From: a virus
Virus record (IMG/VR): IMGVR_UViG_3300035670_000538
Coordinates: 1-40,283 of that record
Length of the DNA: 40,283 nt
Direction: 5' to 3' (one strand)
Under the pieces are notes generated by a model, which was given only the letters and a program-made list of their open reading frames with translations, was not told the origin of the DNA and made no database searches. Shown here in pieces: positions 2,850 to 8,554 of the stretch. Positions within the stretch are counted from its first letter, which is position 1, and each line of letters opens with the position of its first letter. A program made the translations under genes and the position numbers.

Positions 2850-3854
2850 ATGGAACCCACGACCGCTCTCACGAAGTCCGAGGAGTACAAGTTGCTCCCG
2901 GAGGACATCAAGACCCTGGTGGACTCGAACATCATCCCGAAGGATACGCCCGAAGGGACGATCCGGCTGTTCGGGAAGTTCTGCGCCGAGTCCCGCCTGT
3001 CACCGTTCAAGCGTCAGGTCCATCTCATCGGGCGCAAGACGAAGGACGGGATGAAGTATTCGATCCAGACGGGCATCGACGGATACCGCTCGATCGCGGA
3101 CCGCACGGGACGGTATGCCGGTTCGGACGATTACCGCTTCAACGACACGCTGACGGAGTATCAGCACATCGTCACCGAGAAGGGCAAACCCCCGGTGACG
3201 GCAACGGCGACCGTCTACAAGATCGTATCGGGGATGCGCGTCCCGTTCACGGCGACCGCACGGTGGGATGAATACGCCCAGACGAAGTTCGACGGGTCGT
3301 TGAATCCCATCTGGTCGAAGATGCCGTACCTGATGATCGGCAAGTGCGCCGAAGCCCTTGCGCTCCGCAAGGCGTTCCCGGACGAACTCGGCGGGATTTA
3401 CACCGACGAAGAAATGGCTCAGGCCGAAGTTGTCGAAGTGCCGTCCTCGGTCGGGGCGGCAGAGGCGAAGCGGGGGGATGCGGGCCCATATACCCGTCCC
3501 GTCCAAACCGGACAGGAAACCCCCGCCGAGTCCTCCGTCGATGAAGCCGTCCGCAATGAATTGGGCGGGGAGCGCGTAGAGCATCCGGTCACGCAACCGG
3601 CCAAACTCCACCCGACGAAGGGCGACGTGCTGAAGCTCGATGCCGAGCGCAAGAAGCGGTCGATCGCGCTGGAAGTCGTGAAGTTGTGGCTCAGGGACCG
3701 CTATCAGGTCGCAGCCGCCACGGAACTCACGATGGAGCAATACGACGAACTCCGCAACCGCATCATCCCCGGTCTGGACAAGGGGACGATCATGGCCGTC
3801 GACCTCACCATATGGCCGAACCCGCTGGCGAACGAGGAAAGGAGCGCGGCATGA
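2850..3854 (+). CDS. bet: Bet/RecT-family single-strand annealing protein
   Basis: 334 aa. The N-terminal 200 residues match the lambda-Bet/RecT pattern: a segment with LSPFKRQVHLIGRK, then YSIQTGIDGYRSIADRTG, a WSKMPYLMIGKCAEALALRKAFP helix region and an acidic YTDEEM. The C-terminal about 130 residues are variable and charged. It anneals complementary ssDNA in phage recombination and in end or gap repair, normally with an exonuclease (none recognised here) and SSB. It is flanked by an accessory gene upstream and SSB downstream. Confidence 0.88.
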   Translation: MEPTTALTKSEEYKLLPEDIKTLVDSNIIPKDTPEGTIRLFGKFCAESRLSPFKRQVHLIGRKTKDGMKYSIQTGIDGYRSIADRTGRYAGSDDYRFNDTLTEYQHIVTEKGKPPVTATATVYKIVSGMRVPFTATARWDEYAQTKFDGSLNPIWSKMPYLMIGKCAEALALRKAFPDELGGIYTDEEMAQAEVVEVPSSVGAAEAKRGDAGPYTRPVQTGQETPAESSVDEAVRNELGGERVEHPVTQPAKLHPTKGDVLKLDAERKKRSIALEVVKLWLRDRYQVAAATELTMEQYDELRNRIIPGLDKGTIMAVDLTIWPNPLANEERSAA

Positions 3855-4108
3855 TGACCTTCGCCATTCACGTCCCCACGGGCCAGCCGTGCCTTGTCAT
3901 CGACCAGGAGTTCCATCACCAGTACGACCGGGAGGGGCGGAGGATCATCGGACGGTATGCGACGATGCTGGTGGAGTTCATGGGCCACGCGAAGCGTACC
4001 GTCCCGGCGGAAGAGGTCGAGATCGTGAAGTTCAAGTCGAAGGAATACGAGTTCCGCCCGTCGCGTGAGTTCAAGGCGTGGCAGGGCAATCGCAGGCAAG
4101 CGGCGTAA
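3851..4108 (+). CDS. hypothetical protein, 85 aa
   Basis: Starts with MMTFAIHVPTGQPC inside the stop of bet (ATGA). A small basic beta-rich protein with a C-terminal Arg/Gln tail. No motif recognised. Its position between bet and ssb suggests the recombination operon. Confidence 0.6.
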   Translation: MMTFAIHVPTGQPCLVIDQEFHHQYDREGRRIIGRYATMLVEFMGHAKRTVPAEEVEIVKFKSKEYEFRPSREFKAWQGNRRQAA

Positions 4109-4250
4109 TCACTCACTCTCACGCGGTGCGGATCGTTGCGGCGGACGGCGAGGCGACGAGCGGGACGAGTCCCAGCGGCCTCAAGGTGAATGTGTCGGCT
4201 AGGGCGCAAAGGTCGCGTCCGCATCGCGTGGGTTAATCGAAAGGGAGAAC
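4109..4250. other. 142-base intergenic stretch upstream of ssb
   Basis: No convincing open frame. It contains a small GGGA-CGAG-TCCC hairpin near 4160-4172 and a clear AAAGGGAG Shine-Dalgarno before the ssb ATG at 4251. No clear -35/-10 pair was found. It may hold regulatory RNA structure for ssb. Confidence 0.4.
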
Positions 4251-4652
4251 ATGGCACGAAGCGTCAATTTCGCGGTACTCATCGGGAACCTCACGAAAGC
4301 CCCGGAGGTGAGGTACACCGGGGCGGGAGTGGCCGTCGCAACCTTCACCGTCGCCACGAACAAGGAGTGGACGGGGGCCGATGGCATCAAGTCTGAGGCC
4401 GTCCAGTATCACAACATCGTCGCGTGGCGCAAGCTGGCGGAGATCTGCGGCGAATATCTCAAGAAGGGGTCGAAGGTGTACGTGAAGGGCGAGATTGGCT
4501 ACCGGTCCTACGACAAGGACGGCATCAAGAAGTACATCACGGAAATCACCATCGACGAGATGACGATGCTCGACGGGAAGAAGTCGGACGAACACGCCGA
4601 GCCGGTTGCGGCTGGCGCACCGGAATCGAAGGACGGGGATCTGCCCTTCTGA
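4251..4652 (+). CDS. ssb: single-stranded DNA-binding protein
   Basis: 133 aa, OB fold. Typical N-terminus MARSVNFAVLIGNLTKAPEV, then ATFTVATNKEW, the IVAWRKLAEICGEYLKKG helix, VYVKGEIGYRSY and the IDEM strand, followed by a short linker and the acidic tail DGDLPF that recruits partner proteins. It is shorter than E. coli SSB because the linker is short. It protects ssDNA in replication and works with Bet. The next gene starts one base inside its stop (TGATG). Confidence 0.93.
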   Translation: MARSVNFAVLIGNLTKAPEVRYTGAGVAVATFTVATNKEWTGADGIKSEAVQYHNIVAWRKLAEICGEYLKKGSKVYVKGEIGYRSYDKDGIKKYITEITIDEMTMLDGKKSDEHAEPVAAGAPESKDGDLPF

Positions 4653-5458
4653 TGCGGCACATCGACTTGTTCTCTGGCATCGGGGGCTTCGCTCTGGCTG
4701 CGTCTTGGGTATGGGGCGATGAATACGAGAACGTAGGCCACTCTGAAGTTGAGCCGTACGCCTGCAAGGTCTATCACAAACACTTTAGCGGGAGCAAATG
4801 TCTTGGCGACATCACGAAGATCGAATGGCAAGAAGGGCAAGCCGACCTCATCACCGGGGGATTCCCCTGCCAGCCCCACTCCGTCGCAGGGAAGAGGAAG
4901 GGCGCAGAGGATTCGCGGGATTTATGGGGAGAGTGCGTCCGCGCCGTTCGCGTGGTACGACCCCGATTCGCACTCTTCGAGAATGTCCCAGGCCTGTTTA
5001 TTTCCAACGGAGGAAGGTTCTTCAACCGAGTTGTGTCTGACCTGGCCTCAATCGGGTATGATGCGGAATGGCAAGTGCTATCGGCTGAGGCTGTCGGTGC
5101 GCCACACCTACGCAAGAGGGTCTGGATTGTTGCCTACCCCAAAAGTATCGGACTCACGCGAAGGACTCAATTCGGGGAAAGTAACCGAGAACAGGGGGGG
5201 GTATGGATCAACGTAAGGCCGAGAGACGGGGCAAGATTCGGGGCATCGTTGAACGAAGTTGTGAAGTGGCCCACGCCAACAACTCGCGATCACAAGGACG
5301 GGACAAGTGGCAACGGGAGAACGGACATACTTGGTCAGGCGGTTGGCCCGACGAAGGAGAATGGTTCGCTCAATCCGGCATGGGTAGAATATCTCATGGG
5401 GTACCCTCTAGGGTGGACAGACTTAAGGGACTCGGAAACGCCATCGTACCCCAAGTAG
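4652..5458 (+). CDS. dcm: DNA C5-cytosine methyltransferase, reading frame interrupted at a G8 tract
   Basis: 268 aa as read. Motifs: DLFSGIGGF (I, residues 5-13), GGFPCQPHS (IV, catalytic Cys73), FENVPG (VI), RKRVWIVAY (VIII). The expected motif X (LGNAIVPQ) is missing here but is found 20 codons from the end of the -1 frame (5203-5496). A -1 shift, or one extra G, at the G8 run 5194-5201 gives a 281-aa protein ending at 5496 with all motifs. It would methylate cytosine in a short site, probably to evade restriction. Real frameshift, phase variation or assembly error are all possible. Confidence 0.8.
   Translation: MRHIDLFSGIGGFALAASWVWGDEYENVGHSEVEPYACKVYHKHFSGSKCLGDITKIEWQEGQADLITGGFPCQPHSVAGKRKGAEDSRDLWGECVRAVRVVRPRFALFENVPGLFISNGGRFFNRVVSDLASIGYDAEWQVLSAEAVGAPHLRKRVWIVAYPKSIGLTRRTQFGESNREQGGVWINVRPRDGARFGASLNEVVKWPTPTTRDHKDGTSGNGRTDILGQAVGPTKENGSLNPAWVEYLMGYPLGWTDLRDSETPSYPK
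4749..5216 (+). other. second conserved-looking frame overlapping the methyltransferase
   Basis: In the +1 phase relative to the methyltransferase, bases about 4930-5216 read FAWYDPDSHSS, then TWPQSGMMRNGKCYRLR and GLLPTP. From memory these motifs recur in phage proteins annotated as DNA-methylase-like. With the same one-base correction at the G8 run this frame runs on into WPTPTTRDHKD, GSLNPAWVEYLMG and PLGWTDL (about 5265-5430). It is either an overprinted gene or a conserved shadow frame that databases record as a protein. No good start codon or RBS was identified. Confidence 0.3.
5194..5201 (+). repeat. G8 homopolymer in the methyltransferase gene
   Basis: Eight consecutive G bases between the motif VIII and motif X coding segments. 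Changing the length by +1 or -2, or a -1 ribosomal slip here, rejoins the two halves of the methyltransferase. The same change also rejoins the two parts of the overlapping frame, so one event explains both breaks. Confidence 0.85.
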
Positions 5459-5496
5459 CATACCAAATTCTCAAGCCGCTGAAAGACCCGATCTAA
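5203..5496 (+). CDS. C-terminal part of the C5 methyltransferase (motif X) in the -1 frame
   Basis: This frame carries AHANNSRSQGR, then SHGVPSRVDRLKGLGNAIVP (motifs IX/X) and QVAYQILKPL, which is how full-length phage C5 methyltransferases end. Motif X packs against motif I in the SAM site, so a product lacking it should be inactive or altered. It is unlikely to be translated alone: the ATG at 5203 has only the G tract as a pseudo-RBS. Its stop overlaps the next ATG (5496). Confidence 0.65.
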   Translation: MDQRKAERRGKIRGIVERSCEVAHANNSRSQGRDKWQRENGHTWSGGWPDEGEWFAQSGMGRISHGVPSRVDRLKGLGNAIVPQVAYQILKPLKDPI

Positions 5497-5909
5497 TGCC
5501 CGAACCTCTCCCCATCTTCACCGGAACCGTCCTCAACGGTCGCCTGACACTTGACGAGCCGGAGCGATTCAAGCGATATGTGCAATCGCTCTCTGGCCGC
5601 GTTGTGGACGTGACGGTGGGCAAGCACCGCGAACGTCGCAGTAACCCCCAGAACGCGCTCTACTGGTCGTGCTACGTCGCACCCCTAGCCGCGCATCACG
5701 GTTGGGACGCTGACGATATGCACGAATACCTCAAGCTCGAATGCAACCCCGTCATGCTCCACGTCAACGGACAGGAGGTCAAGGTGGGAGGTTCGACCGC
5801 GAAGATGGATCGCGCAGAGTTCACGGCATTCCTCGAACGCATCGAGCGTCATCCGGTGGCGGAGGGTTTCGTCTTCCCCCATGAAGATCGGGTGGAGGTT
5901 CCGGCGTGA
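5496..5909 (+). CDS. NinB/Orf-like recombination mediator
   Basis: 137 aa. It has the NinB-like order of elements: a basic VGKHRERRSNPQNALYW segment (RSxxQNxxYW type), a helix with AAHHGWDADDMHEYLK, then GGSTAKMDRAEFTAFLERIE and a short C-terminal strand. Lambda Orf (NinB) binds SSB-coated DNA and helps load the annealase, which fits the neighbouring bet and ssb. Similarity is by motif order only. Confidence 0.65.
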   Translation: MPEPLPIFTGTVLNGRLTLDEPERFKRYVQSLSGRVVDVTVGKHRERRSNPQNALYWSCYVAPLAAHHGWDADDMHEYLKLECNPVMLHVNGQEVKVGGSTAKMDRAEFTAFLERIERHPVAEGFVFPHEDRVEVPA

Positions 5910-5918
5910 AGAATTCAC

Positions 5919-5947
5919 TTGACATCGGGACAGGAATTCCGTACAAT
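5919..5947 (+). promoter_or_regulatory. near-consensus sigma70 promoter
   Basis: -35 TTGACA (5919-5924), spacer of exactly 17 bases, -10 TACAAT (5942-5947). The spacer ends in a GGAATTCC palindrome that could be an operator. It lies just after the NinB-like stop (5909), and transcription would start near 5954 into the structured leader and the HNH/replication genes. It is the best promoter in the window. Confidence 0.8.
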
Positions 5948-6141
5948 GTCGCCGGAAGGTTTCACCAACGTTGCGTCGATACAACGGGCTTGAGTTCTCA
6001 CTCAATTCCCCGTGTCCTGTGCTGTTCTATCCATTTCGCTTCGGCGGACGTGGGTGAACCTTCCACACAGGCGCGGGGAATTTTTGTTTGTACGCCCCGC
6101 CCAATTCCCTCACCACATAGGAGCATGAAAGGGTATGGGGC
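5948..6141 (+). ncRNA. candidate structured 5' leader of the replication operon
   Basis: About 190 noncoding bases between the promoter and the ATG at 6142. Complementary pairs: GGAAGGTTTCACC (5954-5966) with GGTGAACCTTCC (6053-6064, one bulge); AATTCCCCG (6004-6012) with CGGGGAATT (6074-6082, perfect); a C(UUCG)G-closed hairpin CGC-TTCG-GCG (6037-6046); and an alternative GCGGGG (6073-6078) with CCCCGC (6095-6100). The first two interleave in pseudoknot order, and the last competes with the second. This suggests a switch or attenuator. A 79-codon open frame through it looks non-coding. Confidence 0.45.
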
Positions 6142-6501
6142 ATGAAATACGCAGACAAGCTCAAGGATCCGCGCTGGCAGAAGAAACGGTTGGAGGTGTT
6201 CCAGCGGGACGGGTTTTCTTGTCGGGCTTGCGGTGACACTACGAAGACCCTCAACGTCCACCATTTGCGATACAAGAAAGGCGGTGAACCGTGGGAGTCG
6301 CCACTGTCTGATTTGATGACGCTGTGCGAGTACTGTCACGAGGAAGAGACAAATCGTAGGGCCGATTTTGAATCGGCACTACTGGAAATGCTGAGGGCTA
6401 GGAATTGGACCTGCCAAGACATAGAAATGTTGACGCGGTCTGTTATGGTCGGCTATATCGGGCCTTGGTTTACCGGCCAAACGGGAAAGGTGGGGAAGTA
6501 A
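6142..6501 (+). CDS. HNH endonuclease
   Basis: 119 aa. The HNH core has zinc ligands C27/C30 (SCRAC) and C62/C65 (CEYC), the catalytic-type HH pair at 40-41 (LNVHHL) and H66. The N-terminus (WQKKRLEVFQRDGFSC) is typical of small phage HNH proteins. The start is supported by AAAGGG about 9 bases upstream. It is the first gene after the promoter at 5919 and its stop overlaps the next ATG. Free-standing homing nuclease or packaging/replication helper are both possible. Confidence 0.82.
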   Translation: MKYADKLKDPRWQKKRLEVFQRDGFSCRACGDTTKTLNVHHLRYKKGGEPWESPLSDLMTLCEYCHEEETNRRADFESALLEMLRARNWTCQDIEMLTRSVMVGYIGPWFTGQTGKVGK

Positions 6502-7244
6502 TGGCCTGGATGGAACTGCACCAAGAATTCTACGACCACCCCAAGGTCCGTTCGCTTGCCCGGAACATCCGCGTCCCAATCCCAACGGCGAAAGGATACA
6601 TCGTCAACCTGTGGCTCTACTGCGTGAAGTTCGCGCAAGACGGCGACATCACCGATCACATCACCGACCTACCCTCATACATGGAGGTTCCCGAAAAGCC
6701 GGGATACAACATCATCAAGTCGATGATTGCGGTCGGTTTGCTCGACGAAAACAACGGAAGAGTGTGCGTACACGACTGGAAATCGCATGGTATCCGACTA
6801 CTCAAGCAGTCGAAGAGCCGCCTAACTAAGCACCGACGGCGCAAAGACTTAGGGACGAAAAGTGAAACGTTTCAGAAACGTATCAGTAACGTCCTTCTGA
6901 CCTATCTTTCAGACCTTTCGTACCTATCAACTCAGACCGAGTCGGTGATGCGGTCGGCGGACTTCGCCGCCATCTACACCGAATGGGGTTTGAACAGGAT
7001 CCAAGCCGGTAAACCCCTTACCGACATAGGGATTCGTAGACAGTTGATGTTCCTCGCCAACCAACAAGACGACCCAATTGCGATAGTGCGGCAGTCGCTA
7101 GAACGTCAATGGCAGGGGTTGTTTCCGATCAAAAAGGGGGGCGCGGTAGAAAACAATCAAGACGGTATTCGCGTTCTCCCGCTCAACTCCCACGAAAAGC
7201 GCCGCCTCCGTGAGGCCGCACGAAACCAACAAGCCCAACCATGA
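6501..7244 (+). CDS. replisome organizer / replication initiation protein
   Basis: 247 aa. The N-terminal about 100 residues match the phage replisome-organizer winged-helix pattern (MAWMELHQEFYDHPKVRSLA, then AKGYIVNLWLYCVKFAQDGD). The middle is basic and Ser-rich, and the C-terminal region resembles a helicase-loader segment. It immediately precedes the helicase with a 4-base overlap, the classic organizer/helicase pair. It would bind the origin and recruit the helicase. Confidence 0.75.
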   Translation: MAWMELHQEFYDHPKVRSLARNIRVPIPTAKGYIVNLWLYCVKFAQDGDITDHITDLPSYMEVPEKPGYNIIKSMIAVGLLDENNGRVCVHDWKSHGIRLLKQSKSRLTKHRRRKDLGTKSETFQKRISNVLLTYLSDLSYLSTQTESVMRSADFAAIYTEWGLNRIQAGKPLTDIGIRRQLMFLANQQDDPIAIVRQSLERQWQGLFPIKKGGAVENNQDGIRVLPLNSHEKRRLREAARNQQAQP

Positions 7245-8554
7245 CCGCCGATCCCGAAAAAGCACTCGCCGCAACCGTCCTCGTCTACCCCGAAGCCCTG
7301 TATGCCGTGGGCGGGGTGGTATCTCAGGCCGACTTCATCAGCCACGAATACGCCGAGGTCTACGGTTCGGCCTACTCCATCCTCGACGCTGGCGGGACGG
7401 TGACGCTGGCAACGGTAGCGGATCGCCTGAAGCGCAACGGGCGCAAGAACGCCGAAGAGACGGTGGTGGAACTCTCGAAGTTCGCGGAGTCCGAACCGGC
7501 AGCAATGACGCTGGCGAAGGTGATTCGGGAGCGGTCCATCATTCGGAACCTCAAGCACTTTGCCGGAGAACTCACCGTGAAGGCCGCGCAATCAGACGCC
7601 GACCCGTTCAAGCTCCTGTCTGAGTCTGAGCAACGGCTAATGTCCATCGGGGACATGAGCATCGCCACGCGACCCGTTCCCATCTCGGAAGCGATCCGGG
7701 ACACGGTGACGCACATCGAGGAAATCCGGGCCGGGACGCGCAAGGCGATGGGCGTGGCAACGGGCCTCATCGAACTGGACGGGATCCTCGGGGGCTTGCA
7801 CGAAGGGGACTTGATTGTGGTAGGCGGTCGCCCTGGTATGGGCAAGTCGGCCTTCGTCCTGTCGATTGCGGATTACATCGGGCGCACGGATGCCGTTGGG
7901 GTGTTCTCGCTGGAACTCTCCCGGCATCAGGTGTCGGTCCGGTATCTGGCGATGCACTCCGGCATTGCGTTCATGGACTTGGAGTCGGGCCGGTTCCGTC
8001 AGGACCAAGCCGGGGCGTTCGTCTCAGCCGCCGCCGCATCTTCATCCCGCCGCATCTGGATCGACGATACGCCGGGGATGAAGCTGATGGAGGTTCGGGC
8101 GAAGGTGCGCCGCCTTGTGGCTCAGGAGCATATCCGGTGCGCGTTCATCGACCGTCTGGAATTGCTTGACCCGCCGCAGTCGGAATCCCGCAATCAGGAA
8201 ATATCGCAACTCACGCGGGGGCTGAAGGCGTTGGCGCGTGAACTCAACATCCCGGTCGTATTGCTGGTGCAACTCAATCGGGCCGTGGAGAACCGGAGCG
8301 ACAAGCGGCCCATGCTCTCGGACTTGCGGGACTCCGGGTCGATCGAGCAGGACGCGCAGGTGGTGTTGTTCCCCTTCCGTCCTGAGTATTACGAATTCGA
8401 GAACTACGGCGACGGCTCCCCGACTGTTGGGACCGCCGAGATCATCATTGCCAAGAACACGAACGGGCCGACTGATACGAAGCGGTTCTCGTTCGTCAAG
8501 GAGCGCATGAGGTTCGACAACCTTGCGCCGTCGATCAGGGAGAGTGCCGCATGA
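7241..8554 (+). CDS. dnaB: DnaB-like replicative helicase
   Basis: 437 aa. An N-terminal helical domain (1-120) and a linker precede a RecA-type ATPase with Walker A GGRPGMGKS (195-203), SLEL with Glu225 in the catalytic position, Walker B AFID (Asp304), and the LRDSGSIEQDAQVVLF segment typical of DnaB near residues 360-376. Hexameric 5'-3' unwinding at the phage fork is the expected role. It overlaps the organizer upstream and an HNH gene downstream. Confidence 0.92.
   Translation: MTADPEKALAATVLVYPEALYAVGGVVSQADFISHEYAEVYGSAYSILDAGGTVTLATVADRLKRNGRKNAEETVVELSKFAESEPAAMTLAKVIRERSIIRNLKHFAGELTVKAAQSDADPFKLLSESEQRLMSIGDMSIATRPVPISEAIRDTVTHIEEIRAGTRKAMGVATGLIELDGILGGLHEGDLIVVGGRPGMGKSAFVLSIADYIGRTDAVGVFSLELSRHQVSVRYLAMHSGIAFMDLESGRFRQDQAGAFVSAAAASSSRRIWIDDTPGMKLMEVRAKVRRLVAQEHIRCAFIDRLELLDPPQSESRNQEISQLTRGLKALARELNIPVVLLVQLNRAVENRSDKRPMLSDLRDSGSIEQDAQVVLFPFRPEYYEFENYGDGSPTVGTAEIIIAKNTNGPTDTKRFSFVKERMRFDNLAPSIRESAA

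Follow-up and report, generated by a model that had tools for sequence, protein, structure and literature searches.

The window, i.e. the whole stretch of 40,283 nucleotides that was analysed, contains a putative C5 cytosine methyltransferase locus, placed inside a recombination/replication operon (2850-8554) together with RecT-like, SSB, NinB-like, HNH and DnaB helicase genes, all of which match their own families over most of their length. The methyltransferase region is read in three frames of the + strand, indicated here as A, B and C; the names alpha and beta are used for the products of frame 0 and of the +1 frame in the family. Frame A corresponds to an ORF extending from 4652 to 5458, whose ATG at 4652 overlaps the stop codon of SSB and whose own stop (5456-5458) is reached without a motif X. 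Its first part (4652..5201, +), the N-terminal part of alpha, covers the catalytic domain, with motifs I (DLFSGIGG), IV (GGFPCQ), VI (ENVPG) and VIII (RKRVWIVA). In a profile search it matches positions 1-166 of the 324 of PF00145, with an E value of 1.1e-45; it also matches TIGR00675, and M.HhaI is its best match in a search of PDB sequences.

Frame B, in +1 relative to alpha, contains the N-terminal part of beta (4803..5216, +), identified by a match to phrog_1008 (E 1.5e-16) and by synonymous constraint, with z values of 18 at SGMMRNG and 13.7 at LLPTP. The proposed start is the TTG at 4803, preceded 8 bases upstream by a putative Shine-Dalgarno sequence, GGGAG (4790..4794, +). The frame reads TWPQSGMMRNGKCYRL and then LLPTP, and includes the blocks SGMMRNG (5052-5072) and LLPTP (5124-5144); it is 43-57% identical to the +1 frame of the nearest relatives, and is closed by a stop at 5214-5216, soon after a tract of eight G (G8; 5194..5201, +). 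Past the tract, frame A continues as a beta-type C-terminal part (5202..5458, +), which matches phrog_1008 and phrog_26627 and reads WPTPTTRDHKD .. GSLNPAWVEYLMG / NPAWVEYLMGYP, with WPTPTTRDHKDG from 5267 and a motif IX-like block, GSLNPAWVEYLMGYPLGWTDL, at 5363-5425. Among the loci compared, the window is the only one where the beta C-terminal profile is matched in frame 0. Frame C (5203..5496, +), in frame -1, carries the alpha-type C-terminal part, supported by a match to phrog_363 (E 2e-9) and to a motif X profile: motif X is contained in GRISHGVPSRVDRLKGLGNAIVPQ (5383-5454), where LGNAIVPQ, within GLGNAIVPQ, occupies 5431-5454. An ATG at 5203 lies directly 3' of the tract, and the stop of frame C overlaps the ATG of the next gene, NinB-like. 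Motif X is consequently not on the same chain as motifs I-VIII in the window, while it is in the intact relatives.

The -1 transitions of both readings, from frame A to frame C for alpha and from frame B to frame A for beta, can only occur within 5185..5213 (+), because frame C has its last stop upstream of motif X at 5182-5184 and frame B meets its first stop at 5214-5216. This interval of 29 bases includes the G8 tract, where the length change probably took place. The initial annotation had described motifs I, IV, VI and VIII in the frame from 4652 with the loss of motif X, the presence of LGNAIVPQ in the -1 frame, and a second overlapping frame broken at the same tract in the same direction; it was correct in every detail that was testable. 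G8 is the longest G run of the window and its sole G run of eight. Since about 2.5 runs of at least eight G or C are expected per 40 kb by a first-order Markov model of the window, the tract in itself is not unusual; its falling by chance within that very interval is put, as our own estimate, at roughly 0.2%.

Related sequences were gathered from viral loci, annotated phage regions and 80 bacterial loci. In 98 of 171 loci, the +1 frame contains a SGMMRNG/LPTP block and a WPTP..NPxWVEWLMG block, while frame 0 encodes motifs I-VIII and X. The 80 bacterial loci were found by scanning for the +1 (beta) motif alone: an alpha could be identified in 76 of them, and all 76 display the dual-frame arrangement. 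Chloroflexi, Proteobacteria, Bacteroidota, Actinobacteria, Planctomycetes, Clostridia and Spirochaetes, among others, are named in the titles of these records. On the basis of such comparisons, conservation of the nested arrangement reaches beyond phages into many bacterial phyla. Beta is not represented by any Pfam model, and literature searches returned nothing on widespread nested cytosine methyltransferases. A few members of the set are themselves disrupted: alpha has an in-frame internal stop in one metagenome-assembled genome (MAG; L243), and frame jumps are found in another (L173), whose near twin, L174, is intact.

The coding nature of the second frame was evaluated on 57 alpha genes sharing less than 60% identity with one another, by comparing the identity of synonymous codons in frame 0 with the value expected from codon usage. 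The ratio is neutral (0.95-1.02) over codons 1-56, exceeds 1 from codon 57 and is again 1.00 right after the +1 stop; within the +1 ORF it falls to 1.00 in one block only, corresponding to a variable linker. Constraint peaks over the +1 motifs, with z values of 21 at PTPTASDG, 32 at AVKMWPTP, 77 at TWVEWLMG and 51 at FPIGWTDL; these values assume independent genes, so that their size only serves as a ranking, and the real control is provided by the flat stretches in the same genes. In addition, the openness of the +1 frame exceeds that of synonymous shuffles (p<0.01) in 23 of 31 genes, against 0 of 31 for the -1 frame, which was used as a control along with codons 1-56 and the codons past the beta stop. 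In the homologues, in-frame +1 stops nearly vanish past codon 57, and start codons, some of them with Shine-Dalgarno matches, cluster at codons 50-64.

The class of canonical one-chain enzymes was dropped as a negative control for the +1 test, as it shows constraint of its own. In this class (L011, L013, L021, L023, L042 and L058) the synonymous constraint ratio reaches 3.1 at alpha codons ~121-168, a value based on only 6 representatives, and the +1 frame has a different ending (CSLSDILEE..). This may possibly be a second dual-coded family.

The relative contribution of the two frames was assessed on 42 independent pairs by separating substitution classes, with alpha measured as dNN/dSN and beta as dNN/dNS. 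In alpha, constraint is strong over codons 1-56 (0.09), almost absent from the target-recognition region (0.89; 0.79-0.99) and present once more around motif X (0.29). For beta, the target-recognition region is under constraint, with a ratio of 0.43 (0.35-0.54), and the C-terminal (IX/X) block is the most constrained part (0.27; 0.20-0.33).

A second frame existing as a mere shadow of conserved methyltransferase codons is given practically no credence: YDAEW and VAYP in frame 0 do force parts of SGMMRNG and LLPTP, but synonymous constraint stays within the +1 ORF, with neutral values on either side, no signal is seen in the -1 frame, and in the target-recognition region it is beta, rather than the nearly neutral alpha, which is constrained. 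The shuffle test, the substitution classes and the profile of the 57 genes concur in rejecting it. The doubly conserved overlap perceived in the initial annotation is confirmed, as synonymous constraint begins and ends with the second ORF; lack of constraint on the second frame in homologues, indicated there as the outcome which would reduce it to a shadow, is decisively contradicted. Both frames are thereby shown to be protein-coding in the homologues, and the boundaries, the division of constraint and the interval of the shift are likewise shown by the data.

The structural model of alpha is in line with this division. In this model, built for the relative L085, pLDDT is ~95 for residues 1-160, ~45 for residues 161-250 and 96 for the motif X helix; the best PDB matches are M.HhaI and M.HaeIII, with ~160 aligned columns, the size of the catalytic domain. 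Beta modelled alone gives a poor result (pLDDT 62). Constraint and the alpha model so point to an alpha combining catalysis with a motif X held on a disordered tether, while beta would provide the target-recognition region and a motif IX-like segment. The beta block matches canonical motif IX weakly (probability 7%, E 0.005; LNPxWVEWLMGFPxGWT aligned to RLTPxECxRLQGFPDxW), and is assigned to this motif because of its position, of this weak profile match and of one-chain homologues such as Gudmit gp58, described below.

Taken together, these data make it very probable that a single C5 cytosine methyltransferase of two subunits is encoded at this locus by two genes overlapping on the same strand, one nested in the other, with both frames displaced by -1 at or beside G8. 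Alpha, in frame 0, would comprise the AdoMet-binding and catalytic domain (motifs I-VIII), a disordered linker and a C-terminal motif X helix. Beta would start internally in the +1 frame, near alpha codons 50-64, and contribute the motif IX segment together with the target-recognition region; both polypeptides are expected to assemble into one enzyme. The TTG start of beta in the window counts against this explanation, as do the poor model of beta alone and the weak profile match to canonical motif IX. In the window as deposited, frame A would join motifs I-VIII to the IX block, beta would be cut short and motif X left alone, as the presumable effect of a change in homopolymer length, due either to real slippage in the virus or to an error in sequencing or assembly.

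Among the loci examined, the fully shifted pattern is seen in the window alone. Relatives 75-83% identical in the catalytic domain retain both frames; since their target-recognition regions differ from that of the window, no comparable tract is found in them. In 216 distinct family genes, runs of G7 to G10 are few and their positions scattered. A search of viral contigs for a near-identical copy with another tract length found none. No second lesion is present in either the frame A/C or the frame B reading, and the stop of frame C has kept its overlap with the start codon of the next gene. Given the lack of a near-identical contig, the ending of frame C and the absence of a second lesion, the pattern is most simply accounted for by a recent change in homopolymer length, in the virus or in the data, and a switch fits less well than passive slippage or sequencing error.

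An error of sequencing or assembly in G8, leaving in the virus itself an ordinary intact alpha/beta pair, is credited with a probability just short of one half. Homopolymers are prone to error, the downstream frames retain their conserved motifs and are intact apart from a -1 displacement common to both, and the frame jumps of the relative L173 are missing from its near twin; on the other hand, the neighbouring genes bear no sign of frame errors, and G8 would be short for consensus errors if the data are short-read. A real, passive indel generated by slippage at the tract, with an enzyme inactive or impaired, is a serious candidate whose probability is set somewhat below one half. It agrees with the presence of the longest G run within the 29-base interval, with the intact appearance of the other genes and with the failure to find a near-identical intact contig among viral ones, but the event would need to be recent, as neither frame has accumulated a second lesion.

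A phase-variable switch, or a programmed -1 frameshift at G8, regulating modification, as suggested in the initial annotation, is considered very unlikely. The sequence G_GGG_GGG has the phase required for frame A to slip by -1, and type III methyltransferase genes are known to contain poly-G switches (PMC3711429). However, the frames of the relatives are intact, and the tract is not conserved in the family, where G tracts are scattered. Programmed frameshifting relies on a conserved slippery site and a downstream stimulatory structure: here the site is unconserved, and folding of the RNA 3' of the tract into pseudoknot-free structures revealed nothing unusual (z -0.85 and -0.14). The related motif G_GG.G_GG.U is the least slippery without a stimulator, showing the lowest frameshifting of all motifs in an E. 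coli survey (PMC4066793), which further disfavours the programmed frameshift. A G10 tract, found at alpha position 709 of L223, an uncultured Spirochaetes MAG, inside the target-recognition region of a dual-frame methyltransferase, is a better candidate for tract-length variation than the G8 of the window.

It is quite improbable that G8 lets the phage alternate between two working partitions, i.e. alpha with motif X plus a nested beta, or a catalytic-IX chain plus a small motif X protein; if true, a single tract would remodel both overlapping proteins together, and target specificity could change as a result. Even less credible is that the locus as deposited is a newly partitioned working enzyme, made of a chain with motifs I-VIII and IX and of a 97-residue motif X protein started at the ATG at 5203. 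That ATG does sit behind the tract, G runs are able to function as weak Shine-Dalgarno sequences (PMC4066793) and split C5 methyltransferases tolerate fragment complementation (PMC3404938), but the arrangement is unique among the loci examined, the stop at 5214 removes part of beta and just one base separates the tract from the ATG. Neither the switch nor a new working partition has positive support.

Whatever the origin of the break, the nested pair has implications of its own. Prokaryotes are considered to have few long overlaps between genes of the same strand; the overlap described here is conserved in phages and many bacterial phyla, its boundaries are legible from synonymous sites, and its two frames are split by function, with catalysis and motif X in one and target recognition in the other. 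As gene callers normally retain one frame, databases probably lack the specificity subunit of many annotated methyltransferases, and a missed second frame may be why some methyltransferase genes are called inactive. The arrangement also makes subunit assembly, internal initiation and the mutational coupling of two proteins directly testable.

Several known systems share part of this organization. Canonical one-chain C5 methyltransferases, such as M.HhaI and Gordonia phage Gudmit gp58 (L171), have the same catalytic domain, with all motifs in one frame. In Gudmit gp58, a beta-like module is located between the catalytic domain and motif X of the one chain, in frame 0, and LPTP blocks are also present in its +1 frame. 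Gudmit gp58 is a possible intermediate between nested and fused forms. In the split methyltransferases of actinophages, Hammer gp91/gp90 and Lilbooboo gp32/gp33, a catalytic half is accompanied by a separate beta-like half (phrog_1008); unlike in the nested pair, the second polypeptide carries motif X and the overlap between the genes is only short. In Streptomyces phage phiBT1 (L254, NC_004664.2; locus 1206-2300), gp9.1 is annotated as 'DNA methylase may be inactive', and right after it lies an unannotated +1 frame with motif X and a target-recognition region of beta type, an arrangement also seen in the annotated Lilbooboo pair; the label may thus reflect a missed second gene. Paenibacillus larvae phages have nested genes of DNA-cytosine methyltransferases, e.g. 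Leyra gp61/gp62, where the GenBank annotation includes both members of the pair, with beta nested in +1 and starting at alpha codon 62. Unlike in the window, genes of this type are intact, without a frame break.

In terms of polypeptide layout, the closest known design is that of M.EcoHK31I (YGGCCR); Lee et al. (1995) reportedly found the coding region of its small polypeptide to lie within the large gene, in a different frame. When plasmids were searched with beta, 10 distant records were detected, none of them a named EcoHK31I relative. The large polypeptide of M.EcoHK31I contains motifs I-VIII and X and the small one motif IX, and M.AquI is made of two polypeptides as well (PMC3404938). In the relatives, alpha has the layout of the large polypeptide (I-VIII and X present, IX absent), whereas frame A of the window has the IX block and X is separate. 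For the small polypeptide, the counterpart in the relatives is a +1 coding frame, with IX assigned by position and a weak profile match. The target-recognition domain of M.EcoHK31I is predicted in the large subunit, while here the region is constrained in beta (0.43) and near-neutral in alpha (0.89), where the linker is disordered in the model. In the window, moreover, both frames are displaced at G8 and the second is interrupted at 5214. On this comparison, what is new relative to the M.EcoHK31I design is the apparent location of target recognition in beta, together with the displacement of both frames in the window.
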